From Nitrosopumilus sp. b3 (GTDB lineage: Archaea; Thermoproteota; Nitrososphaeria; Nitrososphaerales; Nitrosopumilaceae): 64,000 nt of DNA. Positions 55,605 through 63,899 of the stretch are shown here, one piece after another. Each line of letters begins with the position of its first letter. Within the stretch, counting starts at the first letter, position 1. Under the pieces are notes generated by a model. The model was not told the DNA's origin and made no database searches. It worked only from the letters and a program-made list of their open reading frames with translations. The stretch covers positions 1-64,000 of the forward strand of contig NZ_MU078697.1 of assembly GCF_014078525.1 (NCBI RefSeq), read 5' to 3'. The position numbers and the translations under genes are program-made.

Positions 55605-55638
55605 ATATAATGGAGATGCTATCTCCATTATATTTTTG
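55605..55638. terminator. Bidirectional terminator, perfect 13-bp hairpin
   Basis: ATATAATGGAGAT and ATCTCCATTATAT pair perfectly around a GCT loop, followed by T-rich tracts on both strands. It sits between convergent genes 55197 (+) and 55628 (-) and overlaps the stop codon of the latter. Confidence 0.7.
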
Positions 55639-56050
55639 GATTAAATGGCAATACCAATGAATCCATTATACTTTTGTTTATGTTGACAAAAGACTTTGAA
55701 TTTTCATTCCATGTATGGATATTCTGTTTGGTTGCATCAATGGATGCAATTGACATCTTACTTTGAACATTAAATGAACGGTTTATCTTTTCTGTAGAGT
55801 CATTCATCATACTGATTGATGATTCTGGTAGATTGGATTTAATTCCTGTTTTTGTTGCAAATTCTCTATGAATATCAATTATTGATGATGAAGCATTATT
55901 CCATGCTTGCACATATTCTTGGAGCAGATTAGTAGCTGCTTGATGGAATTGTGGGATTGACTTTTCTATATTTGAATAGAAGTTGTCAACACTATCACTC
56001 CATACAGAATAGATATCTTTGTGACTGCTTGTGTTTTCTATTTTACTCAT
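55628..56050 (-). CDS. Helical phasin-like protein
   Basis: A 140-residue soluble, amphipathic, helix-rich protein beginning MSKIENTSSHKDIYSVWSDS. The pattern (FYSNIEKSIPQFHQAATNLL, EYVQAWNNASSSIIDIHREF) resembles phasins that coat polyhydroxyalkanoate granules, but similarity is general and no synthase gene is here. The start is ATG 56050 with a GGAGGAGG site upstream; the in-frame GTG lies inside that site. Probably in one operon with the 54-residue gene at 56084. Confidence 0.6.
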   Translation of the reverse strand: MSKIENTSSHKDIYSVWSDSVDNFYSNIEKSIPQFHQAATNLLQEYVQAWNNASSSIIDIHREFATKTGIKSNLPESSISMMNDSTEKINRSFNVQSKMSIASIDATKQNIHTWNENSKSFVNINKSIMDSLVLPFNPKI

Positions 56051-56083: not shown

Positions 56084-56248
56084 TTACTTGAATTCCTCAA
56101 GCAAATCTTCATCTTTTTTGAAGACCCAAGAAAGACCAATCAAATCCATAGCAGAAATGCTAGTTGAGAGAGGGTTTTTGGCCTCACTTTCAACCAGAAT
56201 TTCCTGGCTTGGTTTTTGGTCAAATTTGTATTGAATTACAGTTGACAT
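56084..56248 (-). CDS. Small protein, partner of the phasin-like gene
   Basis: A 54-residue ORF: MSTVIQYKFDQKPSQEILVE, then ISAMDLIGLSWVFKKDEDLL. No membrane segment and no Cys. It lies 33 bases before the phasin-like gene on the same strand and is preceded by a TATA box and the shared 13-base element at 56292. The promoter arrangement supports it as a real gene. Function unknown. Confidence 0.6.
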   Translation of the reverse strand: MSTVIQYKFDQKPSQEILVESEAKNPLSTSISAMDLIGLSWVFKKDEDLLEEFK

Positions 56249-56270
56249 GGTATACTATCGTACTAGAATG

Positions 56271-56280
56271 ATATAATATT
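56271..56280 (-). promoter_or_regulatory. TATA box of the 56084 operon
   Basis: AATATTATAT on the minus strand, about 25-30 bases before the ATG at 56248 and 11 bases downstream of the 13-base element at 56292. Confidence 0.5.
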
Positions 56281-56291
56281 AGCAGTTAATT

Positions 56292-56304
56292 TGTGGTATG
56301 CCTT
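56292..56304 (-). promoter_or_regulatory. Shared 13-bp promoter element, copy 1
   Basis: TGTGGTATGCCTT on the plus strand (AAGGCATACCACA on minus). It lies just upstream of the TATA box of the minus-strand operon at 56084/55628. Identical copies are at 58651 and 61378. Probably a regulator binding site. Confidence 0.55.
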
Positions 56305-56355
56305 TTTGAGAAATAGATAACACGGTTGGAGGAGACAAACTCTGGATTTGATAAA

Positions 56356-56421
56356 AACATCAAAATCTCTCAAAGTGTGGAGTCGTAAGGATACGAAAGT
56401 CTTTGAGAGTTTTTTGATGTT
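56356..56421. other. Long nested inverted repeat, structured RNA or mobile remnant
   Basis: AACATCAAAA pairs with TTTTGATGTT (10 bp), then CTCTCAAAG pairs with CTTTGAGAG (9 bp), with only one to two unpaired T in between. Inside is a 4-bp stem CGTA/TACG with AGGA loop. The 66-base unit lies in non-coding DNA between 56304 and 56568. It could be a structured RNA, a bidirectional terminator or a miniature inverted-repeat element. Confidence 0.65.
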
Positions 56422-56567
56422 AATTTCATTATGAAAAATTACTTTATTGGTTGGTGTTTGTTCAAAATATTCAATCATTTTGAATTTTGGATCGGAACTA
56501 TACGAACACATCTTTTGTAATCATAGACACATTGAAAATTTTAGATTCGAAATTAATTTTAAAATAG

Positions 56568-56969
56568 TTATTTCAAAGAATCTGAAATTACTTTGGCATC
56601 AGTAAATTGTCTGAATTGAACAATTTTGTTTTCTTGTACTAGATATACATGTGAGAATTGTATCTCAAAATTTTTGTCCTTAATTGAAATCCCTCGATAT
56701 TTTCCAATAACCATTATGTGATCCTTGAAATCTAGAAATTGCTCTGGAATGGCGTGAAATTCTTTAAAATTTGAAAGCATTTTTGGAAAATAGTCCTCAA
56801 AGACTGCTTTGACACCAACATATTTTCCACCATTTGGCATATCCTCAGCAGTAATCCATGTAATATCATCATGACATAAATCCAGATATTTTTTGTCTTT
56901 ATTTCTAAAAGAATCATAGAATTCTTTGATGATCTGTAGATTAGACACTACCAAGGAATTAATGTACAA
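56568..56969 (-). CDS. SnoaL-like / NTF2-fold protein
   Basis: A protein of up to 133 residues with an NTF2-like fold: IIKEFYDSFRNKDKKYLDLC, DITWITAEDMPNGGKYVGVK, then IMVIGKYRGIS and FSHVYLVQENKIVQFRQFTD. Family members are cyclases, isomerases or ligand-binding proteins of many kinds; the substrate cannot be inferred. The TTG at 56969 may not be the true start; GTG at 56948 also fits. Confidence 0.78.
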   Translation of the reverse strand: MYINSLVVSNLQIIKEFYDSFRNKDKKYLDLCHDDITWITAEDMPNGGKYVGVKAVFEDYFPKMLSNFKEFHAIPEQFLDFKDHIMVIGKYRGISIKDKNFEIQFSHVYLVQENKIVQFRQFTDAKVISDSLK

Positions 56970-56983
56970 ATATTTTATGTTAA

Positions 56984-57355
56984 TTATTCTTCGGGATTAA
57001 AACCCATTTCCCTCAGATCATTTCTTATCTCTGCTTTAATTTGATCCAATTCCATTTTTGGAATATCAAAACTTATCATCTTTCGAATTTGATTTAGCAT
57101 TACTCGTCCTTCCTGATCATCAGATAGTTTTTGTCCTGATTCTTCAAATGTATAATATGCTTTCATAATTTCCAATCTAGGTTCCAAATCATTTCTATCA
57201 GAACTATCCATCCACTCATCAATCATTATTCGTAAATCTTGTTGTGTTACTGGAGGTACAGGCTCGAAATTTAGTGAATTTACTCCCATCACCATTATCA
57301 AGATACTAATCCCCACTGCTAAGGAAATTGGAATTATTTTATTCACTGCATTCAC
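56984..57355 (-). CDS. Membrane-anchored helical protein
   Basis: A 123-residue protein with one N-terminal membrane helix ([19 protein letters not shown]) and a charged helical outside region ([40 protein letters not shown]). It overlaps the end of the Kazal-domain gene by 17 bases, so the two are co-expressed. Not recognised as a known family. Confidence 0.65.
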
Positions 57356-58079
57356 CTACATGATCAATTGCAATATGCTCAGATGCTATCATACATTTGT
57401 TCCCATATGTTTTCCCGTCAACACCACAAATTGGAGCATATTCCAAGGTACATGCAAAGTTAGGAAAATTTGTTTGCCATCCACGAGTTTGAAGATTTTG
57501 AACGGATTGTGGTTTTACACATGCAGGAGATCCATCACTTGATTTGAAAATCAAAGTCAACTTCTCAGCACAGATTACAGAATGAGCAGGAATTCCAGCT
57601 TCGCCTTGTAGTAAGGGTCTGAGATATGGTTTTTCTTGCCCATCCATCACACATACTTTGCCAGGATATGCTCCAGGACCACACCTATCATTAAGTACAC
57701 AGATTTCACCCAAGGGGACAAAGCCTGGGGCACACATATTTTTGTAAGGAATATGTCTAGTGGAAGTTTTTTCTAATATGTCAATGAGCGTGTATTTTTT
57801 ACTAGAAGAATCTGCAGGTGGATTTTCTACGTCAGTTACTTTTACTAATATTTTGTATGAATGTCCTTGCTGAAAAGAAAACCCCTCAATTGAATCATAA
57901 AAATTCTGCCAGTCAGAAGATTCATCTTCACGAATCTGCAGGCATTTTTGTGGTGCTATACCTACACAATCAGCAAGAGAAGGACTGATGAAAAATGTTT
58001 TTGTTTCTTCAGAAAATGATTCTGAAATAGCAATCGTGCCAATTAAAATAAATGGAATAGCAAACCAAATTGTTTTCAT
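57339..58079 (-). CDS. Secreted protein with C-terminal Kazal-type domain
   Basis: A 246-residue exported protein with signal peptide ([19 protein letters not shown]). Residues about 20-205 hold several Cys in short motifs ([32 protein letters not shown]). Residues about 209-244 match a Kazal serine-protease inhibitor domain: [20 protein letters not shown] with a final Cys in HVGEC. The Cys pair corresponding to C1-C5 of classic Kazal domains is absent, the other two pairs are in place. Protease inhibition is inferred from the fold only. Co-transcribed with 56984. Confidence 0.78.
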
Positions 58080-58157
58080 ATTATTTCTAGAGAGTATTCA
58101 TTTAAAGACTTTGATGAAATTTCAATTTTACTAAAAAGAAAAAACAGGATAAAAAAA

Positions 58158-58445
58158 TTATCCTAGTTTATAGAGATTCTTGAGGACTTGTTTTGCACTA
58201 TATTCTGCGACAATCTTCTTGTATATTTTTACTTGTTCTTTCTTTACAGAACCAAATTCATCGTGAATGATTTTATGTGAACTCTGGAATGGTATTTTGT
58301 CTTTAGTTTTTACGCCATATGATTTTGCTTTGAGTTTATCTGAATAATCAGCCTTTGTAGGTTGAGCATATGCATCAGTTAATGATGGAGCAACAACTCC
58401 TGTAGCCAAGATTGCCATAATGGATATTGCCAAAAATGTTTTCAT
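58158..58445 (-). CDS. Small secreted basic protein
   Basis: A 95-residue exported protein. MKTFLAISIMAILATGVVAP is the signal peptide, with cleavage near TDAYAQ, followed by a Lys-rich helical body (SDKLKAKSYGVKTKDKIPFQ, KKIVAEYSAKQVLKNLYKLG). ATG 58445 is used; a GGAGGTG ribosome-binding site lies 12 bases upstream and contains the GTG of the longer frame. Upstream are a hairpin (58526) and the 13-base element (58651). Function unknown. Confidence 0.7.
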   Translation of the reverse strand: MKTFLAISIMAILATGVVAPSLTDAYAQPTKADYSDKLKAKSYGVKTKDKIPFQSSHKIIHDEFGSVKKEQVKIYKKIVAEYSAKQVLKNLYKLG

Positions 58446-58525
58446 TATTTTCAAATACACCTCCTCTTAGTAAGATAAGTGAAATTCCTCACAATAGAAA
58501 TGATTACAGGTATGTTTTTTCCTCT

Positions 58526-58559
58526 AGTCAGAAGAGAGTGGTCGGACTCCCTTCTGACT
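58526..58559. other. Hairpin in the leader region of the 58158 gene
   Basis: AGTCAGAAG-A-GAGT pairs with ACTC-C-CTTCTGACT around a GGTCGG loop: 13 bp with one A-C mismatch. It lies 80-115 bases before the ATG at 58445. It may be a leader structure in the mRNA or an operator. The 246 bases between 58446 and 58706 hold this hairpin and the promoter element, and no gene. Confidence 0.6.
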
Positions 58560-58614
58560 TGAATTGGTAAACAACTTTTTGCAGATTGGCCTGGTGGGTT
58601 TTGCATTACAAGTA

Positions 58615-58625
58615 GAATATACAAA
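58615..58625 (-). promoter_or_regulatory. Possible TATA box of the 58158 gene
   Basis: TTTGTATATTC on the minus strand, 25 bases downstream of element copy 2. If used, the mRNA would have a leader of about 145 bases including the hairpin at 58526. Confidence 0.35.
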
Positions 58626-58650
58626 AAATATTTGGTTATACCGGACAGTT

Positions 58651-58663
58651 TGTGGTATGCCTT
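58651..58663 (-). promoter_or_regulatory. Shared 13-bp promoter element, copy 2
   Basis: TGTGGTATGCCTT on the plus strand, identical to copies at 56292 and 61378. It lies between the glnA stop and the 58158 gene, oriented toward the latter. Confidence 0.55.
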
Positions 58664-58706
58664 TTTTGTAAAGTATGAAAATTAATTTAGATAAAATCAG
58701 ATGAAA

Positions 58707-60152
58707 CTAGGCATCAGCATACATTGATACTTCCCAAGCTGTTGGGGTTTGAGCAAATGCAGTGTACTCTTTGTATTTTATTTCAGCATACGCATCAAGA
58801 AAGTCTTTTGTAAAAACTTCCTCTAAGAACTTTGAATCACTTTCCAATGAATCAAGTGCACCCTTCAAAGAAACAGGTAAAGTTCCAATTTTGTATTCTC
58901 TTTTCTTGTCAGGAGAAAGTTTGTAAACATTTTCTTCAATAGGATCTCCAGGATCAATTTTATTTTTTATTCCATCTAATCCTGCCAACAATAATGCAGC
59001 CTCTAAAAGATAGATGTTTGCAGTAGGATCCGGTACACGATACTCTATTCTCTTGCTCTTTGATTGATTTCGATTGTACATTGGAACTCTAATTGCAGTT
59101 GAACGGTTACCCAAGCCCCAGCAAACATTAGTTGGTGCTTCAAAACCTGGAACTAGGCGTTTGTAAGAATTTGTAGTCGGGTTTGTAATTGCACACAAAG
59201 CTGATGCGTGACTTAAAATCCCACCAACATAATATCTGCCGGTTTGGCTCATTTGTGATTGTTCATCATTTTCATCATACATCACATTTGTTTTTTCATT
59301 CCACAGACTTTGATGAGTATGCATAGCTGATGCATTATCACCAAAAATTGGTTTTGGCATAAAAGTTGCAACTTTGTTTTTTCGTTTAGCTTTTACTTTG
59401 ATTAAATTTTTAACTGCAATAACGTTGTCTGCCATTGCAATCATTTCATCATAAACTAGATTGATTTCACATTGGCCAGAAGTTGCAACCTCATGGTGTT
59501 CTGCCTCTATTTTAATTCCAAAATGATTGTACAGATCTTCACAAACATCTTTTCGAAATCCCTCAAGAGTATCCTTTGGCTGTGATGGATAGTACCCTTC
59601 TTTGAGGTCAATTGCCGTACTTACATTTCCTTTAGCCCAAGGGGATTCTTTGGATTCAATTGAATATCCCGAGCCTCCATAGGCATGAGTTGCAGCATAT
59701 GGCGATGGATATACATTGATGGTGTCAAATACAAAGAATTCAATTTCCGGTCCCCAATTGGTATGAGTTAATCCAAATTCAGATAGTTTTTCTGATGCCT
59801 TATGTGCAATGCCTCTGGAATCTCGATTAAATCTCGATTCCTTTCTTGTACTGCCATCATACAAATCACAAAATATTCGAGCATTTTTCCTATTACCAGG
59901 ATCATAGTCATTTGGAAGAATTTTAAACGAGTTTGGGTCAGGTAATAGAATCATATCAGAGTGATTCACTGATTTGAATCCAACAATAGAGCTGGCATCT
60001 AGTTTTTCAAGGCCGTTAACAAAACTATCCTTATCAATTGCATAGCTTGGCATTCCAACATTATGTAATTCACCAAAAATATCTACAAACCAGAAATCAA
60101 CAAACGATATCTTTTCATTTTGAATAGTCTGTAATACTTGGTCTGAATTCAA
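58707..60152 (-). CDS. glnA: Glutamine synthetase type I
   Basis: A 481-residue GS. Visible parts are the N-terminal beta-grasp (FVDFWFVDIFGELHNVGMPS), the metal-binding NWGPEIEFFVFD and EAEHHEVATSGQCEINL, the ATP-binding DNASAMHTHQSLW and the RVPDPTANIYLLEAALLLAG end. It condenses glutamate and ammonia with ATP and, with the P-II protein and GDH in this window, forms the ammonia assimilation set. The start is a TTG with a TATA box just upstream. No adenylylation loop Tyr is obvious. Confidence 0.95.
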   Translation of the reverse strand: MNSDQVLQTIQNEKISFVDFWFVDIFGELHNVGMPSYAIDKDSFVNGLEKLDASSIVGFKSVNHSDMILLPDPNSFKILPNDYDPGNRKNARIFCDLYDGSTRKESRFNRDSRGIAHKASEKLSEFGLTHTNWGPEIEFFVFDTINVYPSPYAATHAYGGSGYSIESKESPWAKGNVSTAIDLKEGYYPSQPKDTLEGFRKDVCEDLYNHFGIKIEAEHHEVATSGQCEINLVYDEMIAMADNVIAVKNLIKVKAKRKNKVATFMPKPIFGDNASAMHTHQSLWNEKTNVMYDENDEQSQMSQTGRYYVGGILSHASALCAITNPTTNSYKRLVPGFEAPTNVCWGLGNRSTAIRVPMYNRNQSKSKRIEYRVPDPTANIYLLEAALLLAGLDGIKNKIDPGDPIEENVYKLSPDKKREYKIGTLPVSLKGALDSLESDSKFLEEVFTKDFLDAYAEIKYKEYTAFAQTPTAWEVSMYADA

Positions 60153-60156
60153 TTAG

Positions 60157-60172
60157 ATATTTTTAAAAAGTA
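60157..60172 (-). promoter_or_regulatory. TATA box of glnA
   Basis: ACTTTTTAAAAATATC on the minus strand directly before the TTG start, consistent with a leaderless transcript. Further upstream (60247-60271) AAATAGT and ACTATTT form an inverted repeat with an 11-base loop that could be an operator; the rest of the 240-base gap shows nothing clear. Confidence 0.45.
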
Positions 60173-60401
60173 ATTCACTAATATTGTTTTGTAAGTCAGA
60201 GTTGTCAAGTTAGTCATGTTATTTTGAAAGGATCAAATTATTTTGGAAATAGTAATGAAATATCACTATTTTTATCAGTATAGCATAAAATGTCAGTAAA
60301 ATTTTGTACTGCTTATTAACAAAAAAATAGTCAAAATAGATACATCGATCAAAAATTAATTTTCACTCATCAGGCTAAATCCAAATTTCTAGTTGAAAAA
60401 C

Positions 60402-60602
60402 ATGAAAAAATCAATAAATCAAACAATAGAAAACCCAATTCCAGAAAAGCCAATACAGTATAGATTGAAACAGGCAAGCTGCATTACAGTAGAGTCTGCG
60501 CTTAGAAACAAAGTAAACTTGAATATTTCATGGTATGACGTTCACGGAGATGAACAAAGTCAAAAATATTCAATATCTGCCGGTTCAGTAATAGAATTAT
60601 AA
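60402..60602 (+). CDS. Small hypothetical protein
   Basis: A 66-residue protein: MKKSINQTIENPIPEKPIQY, then ISWYDVHGDEQSQKYSISAG and a short end. It looks like a small beta-rich domain without Cys clusters or membrane segments. A T-rich tract follows (60608-60628) as likely terminator. Family not recognised. Confidence 0.5.
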   Translation: MKKSINQTIENPIPEKPIQYRLKQASCITVESALRNKVNLNISWYDVHGDEQSQKYSISAGSVIEL

Positions 60603-60683
60603 AATAAAATATTTTTTTCTTTTTTTTAATACATTTCCCAGAAATCAAACATGTTTACAGGAAAGACAGAGACAAAATTAGAT

Positions 60684-60887
60684 TTATGGAGCTTGTACAA
60701 TCATCGCTTTTTTTAGAGGAGGATTATTCTTGAAATAGCTAGCAGTATAGAGAATTTTATCCCCTTCAGGCATGGGATTTGCGCATTTTCCACAAAGTGG
60801 CAAGATTACTTCTGCATCAAAATCAATCTCTCCAATTACAAATTTGCATTTGTGGCAAATTATTGACTTTGTATCATAAAGATTCAT
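60684..60887 (-). CDS. Small zinc-ribbon protein
   Basis: A 67-residue protein with CHKC at residues 11-14 and CGKC at about 32-35, a zinc ribbon, and a short hydrophobic, basic tail (NNPPLKKAMIVQAP). It follows, with a 4-base overlap, the secreted-protein gene upstream, so the two are translationally coupled. Function unknown. Confidence 0.65.
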   Translation of the reverse strand: MNLYDTKSIICHKCKFVIGEIDFDAEVILPLCGKCANPMPEGDKILYTASYFKNNPPLKKAMIVQAP

Positions 60888-61246
60888 TTTTTTGTCACCT
60901 CTAGAGGCATCTGAATCAAAATACTGTTGCTGTATTTGGCATCAACTGATGTTTCATAGTTTTTACATGAATTTGCCAACTGTAATTTATTATATTTTAC
61001 AACTTTGGAGCCAAGATCAGATGTTATGGTAAATGTAGGAGTCGTCACATGTTCTTGTCCAATGCAGGTTTTGAATTGAACATAATAGCTGTCTTCAGAA
61101 GTTTTTGCCAGATATTGTATCTTAATTGAATTAACATTTGGGTTTTTTGGGGTATCACCATATGCAGAAACCGAAAATAAAGAGACAAGTAGCACTGTAC
61201 CTAAAAACAGTCCAAGTTTTTTATTTTCAGAGTTTGATTTTTTCAT
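60884..61246 (-). CDS. Small secreted protein
   Basis: A 120-residue exported protein. MKKSNSENKKLGLFLGTVLL begins the signal peptide, cleaved near VSAYGD. The outside domain has two Cys (FKTCIGQEHV, LANSCKNYETS) and looks beta-rich. I chose the ATG at 61246 as it starts a proper signal peptide. Its promoter carries the 13-base element (61378) and a TATA box near 61354. Function unknown. Confidence 0.68.
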   Translation of the reverse strand: MKKSNSENKKLGLFLGTVLLVSLFSVSAYGDTPKNPNVNSIKIQYLAKTSEDSYYVQFKTCIGQEHVTTPTFTITSDLGSKVVKYNKLQLANSCKNYETSVDAKYSNSILIQMPLEVTKK

Positions 61247-61353
61247 TTTATTCCTTTTTGGTGAAACGTAAAGAGGCAACTATCAGGATTCGAGGGGATC
61301 CGAGAGATATGTCAAACCTCTTACGTTTTCGCCAAAGTGATTAACACATATCA

Positions 61354-61362
61354 ATTATATCA
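61354..61362 (-). promoter_or_regulatory. TATA box upstream of the 60884 gene
   Basis: GATATAAT on the minus strand, 16 bases downstream of element copy 3. It would leave a leader of roughly 80-90 bases before the ATG at 61246. Confidence 0.4.
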
Positions 61363-61377
61363 AAATATTTTCCAAAC

Positions 61378-61390
61378 TGTGGTATGCCTT
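61378..61390 (-). promoter_or_regulatory. Shared 13-bp promoter element, copy 3
   Basis: TGTGGTATGCCTT on the plus strand, identical to 56292 and 58651. It lies between the 61399 gene stop and the TATA box of the 60884 gene. Confidence 0.55.
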
Positions 61391-61398
61391 GACTATAA

Positions 61399-61578
61399 TT
61401 ATGCAACATGTGACAGAGGAAGATAGTTATCAACATCTAGCCTACATGTTGAGTGAATTTGTTCATCTGATTCGTTAAGACAAGTTGTACATTCAAATTT
61501 TATCGCTTGAAAACAAATCGAACATTTTTGTTTGATCTCTTGAAGAGTACCACACTTTCTACAGCAATCAATTCTCAT
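61399..61578 (-). CDS. Small protein with three CxxC pairs
   Basis: A 59-residue ORF: MRIDCCRKCGTLQEIKQKCS, then CSIC and CTTC, giving three CxxC pairs and an extra Cys, enough for one or two zinc sites. A GGTGG ribosome-binding site precedes the ATG and overlaps the stop of the small membrane gene upstream. Function unknown. Confidence 0.65.
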   Translation of the reverse strand: MRIDCCRKCGTLQEIKQKCSICFQAIKFECTTCLNESDEQIHSTCRLDVDNYLPLSHVA

Positions 61579-63098: not shown

Positions 63099-63899
63099 AT
63101 GACGGATCTATTTGATGAAACTGCAAACTATGTATTGGATTTAGCAAGCCCTCAGAGAATGCAAATTTTATTCAAGTTATTAGAGAAAAATTCGACTCCC
63201 ACCAGCTTGGCAAAAGAAATTGATGCTACAAAACAAGAGGTACATCGAAATTTTACCAGACTAGAACAAAGCGGTTTGATAGAAAAGAAAACTGATGGAA
63301 AGTACACATTAACAACTTTTGGTAAAATAGTATGCACACAGGTTCCATCACTAGTGTTTATTTCACAGAATAGAAAATATTTCGAGGATCATTATTTTGG
63401 AAACATCCCACACAAATTCCAAATGCGCTGCGGTCAACTTGCAAACGGTCAATACATCAAGGGAATATCAAAGGTGCTTGAACAATGGAAAAATGTCTAC
63501 AAAAATTCTAACGAATACATTTACGAAGTTTTATCTGAAGTTCCACTTGATTTGATAGAACCTCTAGTAAAACAAGTCAAAAAAGGAGTGAAATTCAACT
63601 ACATATTTTCAGAGTCAGCCGTAGTCCCTAAAGGACGAAAGGCATTACTGAAAAAACTCGGGTTTGACAAACTAGTTGAAAAGGGGTTAATTGAAAGAAA
63701 GATGGAAAAAAATGTTCAAACAGTCTTAATTCTAAATGAGAAAGAGGCATGCATTATGTTTCCCACACTTGATGGGGAATCAGATCTTACTGAGATGTTT
63801 TATTCAGATGACTTAATGTTTCATGAATGGTGCCTTGATTACTTTAGATATTGCTGGTATGGCTCAGATATTTTTAAAGAAAGTAAGCTCAAAGAATAG
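63099..63899 (+). CDS. Winged-helix regulator with sensor domain
   Basis: A 266-residue protein. Residues about 12-75 form a winged helix (RMQILFKLLEKNSTPTSLAK, TKQEVHRNFTRLEQSGLIEK). The rest (LVKQVKKGVKFNYIFSESAV, FDKLVEKGLIERKMEKNVQT, and a Cys/Trp-rich end EWCLDYFRYCWYGSD) resembles the DUF1724 sensor of archaeal regulators. Ligand and targets unknown. Confidence 0.8.
   Translation: MTDLFDETANYVLDLASPQRMQILFKLLEKNSTPTSLAKEIDATKQEVHRNFTRLEQSGLIEKKTDGKYTLTTFGKIVCTQVPSLVFISQNRKYFEDHYFGNIPHKFQMRCGQLANGQYIKGISKVLEQWKNVYKNSNEYIYEVLSEVPLDLIEPLVKQVKKGVKFNYIFSESAVVPKGRKALLKKLGFDKLVEKGLIERKMEKNVQTVLILNEKEACIMFPTLDGESDLTEMFYSDDLMFHEWCLDYFRYCWYGSDIFKESKLKE

Follow-up and report, generated by a model that had tools for sequence, protein, structure and literature searches.

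The 13-bp element that occurs three times in the 64,000-nucleotide window of Nitrosopumilus sp. b3 analysed here is the strong half of a dyad, whose second half, 19 bp on, is weaker. It is likely that this dyad (AAGGCATRCCRCA ... GGYAT) is an operator at some ten promoters of the genome, bound in trans by the winged-helix protein of a kinase/receiver cassette. Judging from genome comparisons, the element very probably belongs to an undescribed winged-helix protein encoded elsewhere in the genome, and the assignment of about ten small-protein promoters to the regulon of this candidate is supported. No published report of the motif was found in a literature search.

The sequence-only reading of the window had described three exact copies of the element in one orientation, and all three were reproduced by a window scan. 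TGTGGTATGCCTT starts on the plus strand at 56292, 58651 and 61378, so that the promoters read the element on the minus strand as AAGGCATACCACA. The genome-wide scan found no further exact copy in the 1.79-Mb genome; the three copies in the window are the sole ones. Three copies with one mismatch and several with two mismatches are also in a promoter setting, and the remaining two-mismatch copies mostly lack promoter-like surroundings. The exact and near-copies make up ten sites genome-wide, grouped in a few genome regions, and the majority of them occupy one fixed promoter position. A search with three mismatches was uninformative, as the motif is swamped (17 found vs. 17 expected). The relaxed core GGCAYRCCRYA matches the genome 15 times, and its reversed control once. 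Two of these 15 matches overlap as opposite-strand readings of one site, which leaves 14 distinct sites; a TATA-like box follows 10 of them, and the other four resemble coding sequence. Random scatter over coding DNA, which the sequence-only reading had set against its own claim, is not seen: close matches lie at a fixed distance 5' of start codons.

Table 1. Features of the three sites in the window and the two loci of the candidate regulator in the genome.
Feature	Position	Strand	Basis or remark
Site 1, distal half-site AAGGCATACCACA	56292..56304	-	scan for exact copies
Site 1, proximal half-site position, GCTAA, degenerate	56279..56283	-	sequence; position from promoter set
Site 1, TATA-like box TATTATATC	56270..56278	-	sequence
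Site 1, gene 1: 54-aa GLSW-family protein	56084..56248	-	start codon 54 bp from motif GG
Site 1, gene 2: PhaE/phasin-like	55628..56050	-	TIGR01834 match is weak (E 0.011) and well short of cut-off
Site 2, distal half-site AAGGCATACCACA	58651..58663	-	scan for exact copies
Site 2, proximal half-site GGTAT	58638..58642	-	completes a perfect dyad, ATACC-N11-GGTAT, 19 bp from first GG
Site 2, TATA-like box CAAATATT	58627..58634	-	sequence
Site 2, gene 1: 51-aa ORF	58451..58606	-	start 55 bp from GG
Site 2, small secreted Lys-rich protein, probably second gene	58158..58445	-	
Site 3, distal half-site AAGGCATACCACA	61378..61390	-	scan for exact copies
Site 3, proximal half-site position, AATAT, degenerate	61365..61369	-	sequence
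Site 3, TATA-like box GATATAAT	61354..61361	-	sequence
Site 3, probable 5' UTR, ~90 nt, long hairpin, begins GGCGAAAACGTWAGAGGTTTGACATATC	61247..61333	-	
Site 3, gene 1: small secreted protein	60884..61246	-	
Site 3, gene 2: zinc-ribbon protein	60684..60887	-	overlaps stop of preceding gene
Candidate regulator gene	C2:218343-219206		
Candidate regulator paralogue	C4:326443-327300		

At most sites in this genome, AAGGCATRCCRCA is followed by a TATA-like box and then by a start codon 54-57 bp past the GG of the motif. In a set of 115 promoters collected from this and other genomes, the box lies ~24-36 bp from the GG; the TATA-like sequences noticed earlier beside the element are real. The ATG is mostly 54-55 bp from the GG in the same set, and with the start codon at this distance the transcripts are probably leaderless or nearly so. 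GGYAT is placed at an offset of exactly 19 in 25 of its 29 occurrences among the collected promoters, which yields the inverted repeat ATRCC-N11-GGYAT. A reading of the two half-sites as direct repeats was dropped because ATRCC and GGYAT are inverted. Both halves are intact at site 2 of the window (ATACC...GGTAT), and the proximal half is worn at sites 1 and 3.

The most common targets are proteins of 48-60 aa that end in [DE]xxGLSWxF and an acidic tail, and looser GLSW relatives have the N-terminal pattern LVxxxAKNPLxT in common. Other targets include DUF6659 roadblock-like proteins, zinc-ribbon proteins and small secreted proteins; the window adds a phasin-like protein. For the GLSW family neither Pfam nor NCBIfam returned a significant match, and only DUF6659 was recognisable among the targets scanned. 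The genes assigned to the three sites in the sequence-only reading hold for sites 1 and 3. At site 2 the nearest gene is a conserved 51-aa ORF, and the Lys-rich secreted protein named there comes after it. This ORF is kept in three other genomes, G080 (82% identity), G013 and G018. It shows 34% identity over 53 columns to a target in G013 and looks like an outlying member of the GLSW relatives. Within it there is an inverted repeat, GTCAGAAGGGAGTCCGACCACTCTCTTCTGAC, at 58520-58555 (minus strand).

Site 3 differs in having a leader. Its hairpin has z values from -1.7 to -5.4. The first 28 nt of the leader recur at a second regulon site (G000, C4:319950-319977, minus strand), and they are identical, W aside, in two other species (G096 and G013). 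The leader beginning with GGCGAAAACGTWAGAGGTTTGACATATC stands before two different secreted-protein genes of the regulon and is possibly a regulatory RNA element. An Rfam scan of the window returned only a tRNA and no match for this leader. Just 5' of site 3, a further small zinc-ribbon protein is encoded at 61399-61578 (minus strand); it lacks a recognisable site of its own, and its layout is like that of the zinc-ribbon regulon targets of other genomes.

The candidate regulator was indicated by the position of the motif itself. At two loci of the genome, a 285-287-aa protein is encoded on the strand opposite to the motif, and its start codon lies within the motif (GGC-ATG-CCT in reverse reading). 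The two paralogues are 52% identical, and at both loci a GLSW-family gene diverges from the regulator at a distance of 56-59 bp. No copy of the regulator was found inside the window. An HVO_A0261-like gene at position 63099 of the window was set aside as regulator, as it has no link to other sites. Neither regulator copy has a Pfam match at E 0.1, including HTH_20 (PF12840) and the MarR profiles. An NCBIfam search with the family gave no convincing match, and a search of solved structures by sequence gave chance-level rows only. The AlphaFold model of the regulator is confident (pLDDT 88) and contains a winged helix at residues 40-121. Alignment of the model with VIA-align to MarR proteins and archaeal RosR gave Z scores of 9-10.8 over 70-80 residues, a range in which many winged-helix families score alike, and Foldseek returned nothing below E 0.001. 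In the structure comparison, the predicted winged-helix fold of the regulator resembles that of MarR proteins and RosR over about residues 20-138. The regulator differs from them in having no sequence family match and in a long helical C-terminal part that lies outside the structural matches.

A scan of named genomes yielded 54 loci of the regulator family, and an operator-like sequence is present at the regulator start codon in 38 of them. At many of these loci a distance of 50 bp separates the regulator start from that of the divergent gene, whatever the product of the latter (range 50-59 bp). In a class-wide sample, the family is present in 57 of 250 genomes, nearly all of them within the family of the window organism. 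Across 79 genomes of the genus, the pattern GGCATRCCRCA-N41-46-ATG has ~90 matches in 22 genomes vs. one for the control, and these matches include about a dozen copies of one GC-rich repeat in a single genome (G102). This repeat, which starts with GGCATGCCACAATTGCGG, is found on many contigs, often at their ends (e.g., C11:40-97), and looks like an unrelated chance match to the pattern. Sites of this type also lie close to regulator genes in Nitrosarchaeum, Nitrosotenuis chungbukensis and Nitrososphaeraceae records. The motif precedes homologues of its target genes in many species; a lack of conservation upstream of orthologues, which would have counted against the element, is not observed. 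In G090, seven near-identical promoters of this type (e.g., C86:23000-34000, L228) precede a variety of genes, most of them for secreted proteins, as if a single promoter had spread recently.

Several tests link the regulator to the motif, all with shared ancestry uncorrected. The motif pattern is present in 19 of 34 genomes with the regulator vs. 3 of 45 without it (Fisher p 1.6e-6, phylogeny ignored). At least two AT-rich sites are found in 12 of the 34 regulator-positive genomes and in none of the 45 regulator-negative ones. Of 24 regulator-positive genomes, 21 have the core 5' of their best GLSW gene, and of 6 regulator-negative genomes none has it there. The regulator-positive genomes in which no site was scored before that gene are G012, G016 and G114, the last of which has a variant; in G113 the scripted check picked another ORF, and the site before the GLSW gene is present all the same. 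If base 9 of the regulator's own site is A, the trans sites are 37 A to 3 G at that base, and if it is G they are 1 A to 11 G; these are hand-read counts, and the G sites include six near-copies from G090. The offset between the half-sites (19, 15 or 14) splits by regulator clade, and its labels require the fewest possible changes on the tree. In 592 kb around the 54 regulator loci, the motif has 50 sites besides the masked start sites, and the control has none. Comparative genomics supports the proposal that the genes form a coordinated regulon under a dedicated regulator; the regulon extends beyond three genes, and there is a named candidate for its regulator. It could also be that the cassette acts on other sites and that another protein reads the motif. 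Motif-less GLSW genes (L140, L142, L143 and L144), mostly from regulator-negative genomes, have another upstream sequence in common, GATCATTTGTTCGTTAACGTTTTAAGTAAATT, which suggests different control.

A CheY-like receiver gene adjoins the regulator at 51 of the 54 loci, nearly always convergently, with a histidine kinase behind the receiver; a kinase-like gene is present at 52 of the 54. Both cassette kinases of this genome match PF00512 and PF02518 (HisKA and HATPase), and both receivers match PF00072. The receivers are REC-only proteins of 120-121 aa. The DNA-binding domain is not fused to them, and the winged helix is a separate gene product. In the sections drawn on here, a census of archaeal two-component systems (Galperin et al. 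2018, PMC5847659) puts REC-only proteins at ~75% of the response regulators in Thaumarchaea. For most of them the gene surroundings are not conserved, and a few lie divergently to ArsR-type genes. The same sections state that most archaeal receivers lack a DNA-binding output and that specific functions cannot be deduced for most stand-alone receivers; they contain no mention of a kinase-receiver-winged-helix cassette (PMC5847659). The cassette probably explains how archaeal sensors of this type act on their genes. It provides a concrete candidate output protein, an operator and a gene list for a receiver in ammonia-oxidising archaea, and it opens a way, through their promoters, to many small proteins that lack annotation.

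Several known systems are similar in part. The pairs of REC-only and ArsR-like (HTH_20, arCOG03067) proteins in Thaumarchaea, as described in those sections, likewise combine a stand-alone receiver with a neighbouring separate DNA-binding gene (PMC5847659). Those pairs are occasional and divergent, whereas the cassette here is convergent, includes a histidine kinase, and its DNA-binding protein has no match to HTH_20 or any other Pfam family. FilI/FilR1/FilR2 of Methanosaeta harundinacea and LtrK/LtrR of Methanococcoides burtonii also comprise a kinase, a receiver and an HTH/winged-helix output, but FilR1 and LtrR each carry receiver and HTH on a single chain (PMC5847659, same sections), and here they are separate proteins. 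The MsmS-type kinases of Methanosarcina have separate regulators which, as here, lack a REC domain; in their description they are set apart from two-component systems (PMC6944256), while the present cassette has a REC protein together with its kinase. In another ammonia-oxidising archaeon, Nitrososphaera viennensis, the copper-limitation motif TTCSGSMTTTGWACYANT is also placed at -35 to -70 from start codons, but its sequence and gene set are unrelated to those of the element (PMC7785015).

In the proposed mechanism, the kinase would phosphorylate the receiver, and the receiver may act on the winged-helix protein through protein contact, as the gene order suggests. The operator-bound winged-helix protein would then help TBP/TFB to load at the target promoters. 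Its predicted occupancy from -54 to -31 relative to the start codon, immediately 5' of the TATA box, is compatible with activation via TBP/TFB. At the divergent promoter of the regulator itself, the dyad lies over the regulator's start codon, and the protein bound there would be expected to switch off its own gene. The AT-rich core at this promoter is ~28 bp from the regulator start and ~23 bp from the divergent start. An extension of this mechanism, to which we give even weight for and against, is that the cassette is lineage-wide and works by receiver-binder contact, and that the operator sits on a bidirectional promoter with one core, where binding flips transcription, with the regulator off and the target on.

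The distal half of the dyad is stronger and better conserved than the proximal half, and its position, -54 to -44 from the start codon, is typical of archaeal activators. This argues against repression of all target promoters by the winged-helix protein, with a signal relieving the repression, which is conceivable but rather unlikely. MarR-like winged-helix proteins are often repressors, and the proximal half abuts the TATA box and the BRE region, where a repressor would also work. In divergent pairs, however, the dyad covers the start of the regulator but sits 5' of the TATA box of the target.

It is quite improbable that the element is an extended BRE, that is, a core-promoter element for a special TFB instead of a site for a separate transcription factor. 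Thaumarchaea encode several TFBs, the distance of the element 5' of the TATA box is fixed, and the proximal half lies at the expected place of a BRE. The element is a dyad, however, with one half 19 bp further 5' than a BRE, and it is present in some species only, where it tracks the winged-helix family and its spacing shifts with the clades of that family. An origin of the copies as functionless leftovers of duplicated or mobile DNA is hardly credible despite the seven near-identical promoters in G090 and the clustering of sites in a few genome regions, since beyond the motif and the TATA box the promoters and downstream genes are mostly unrelated, and the sites are kept in distant genera.
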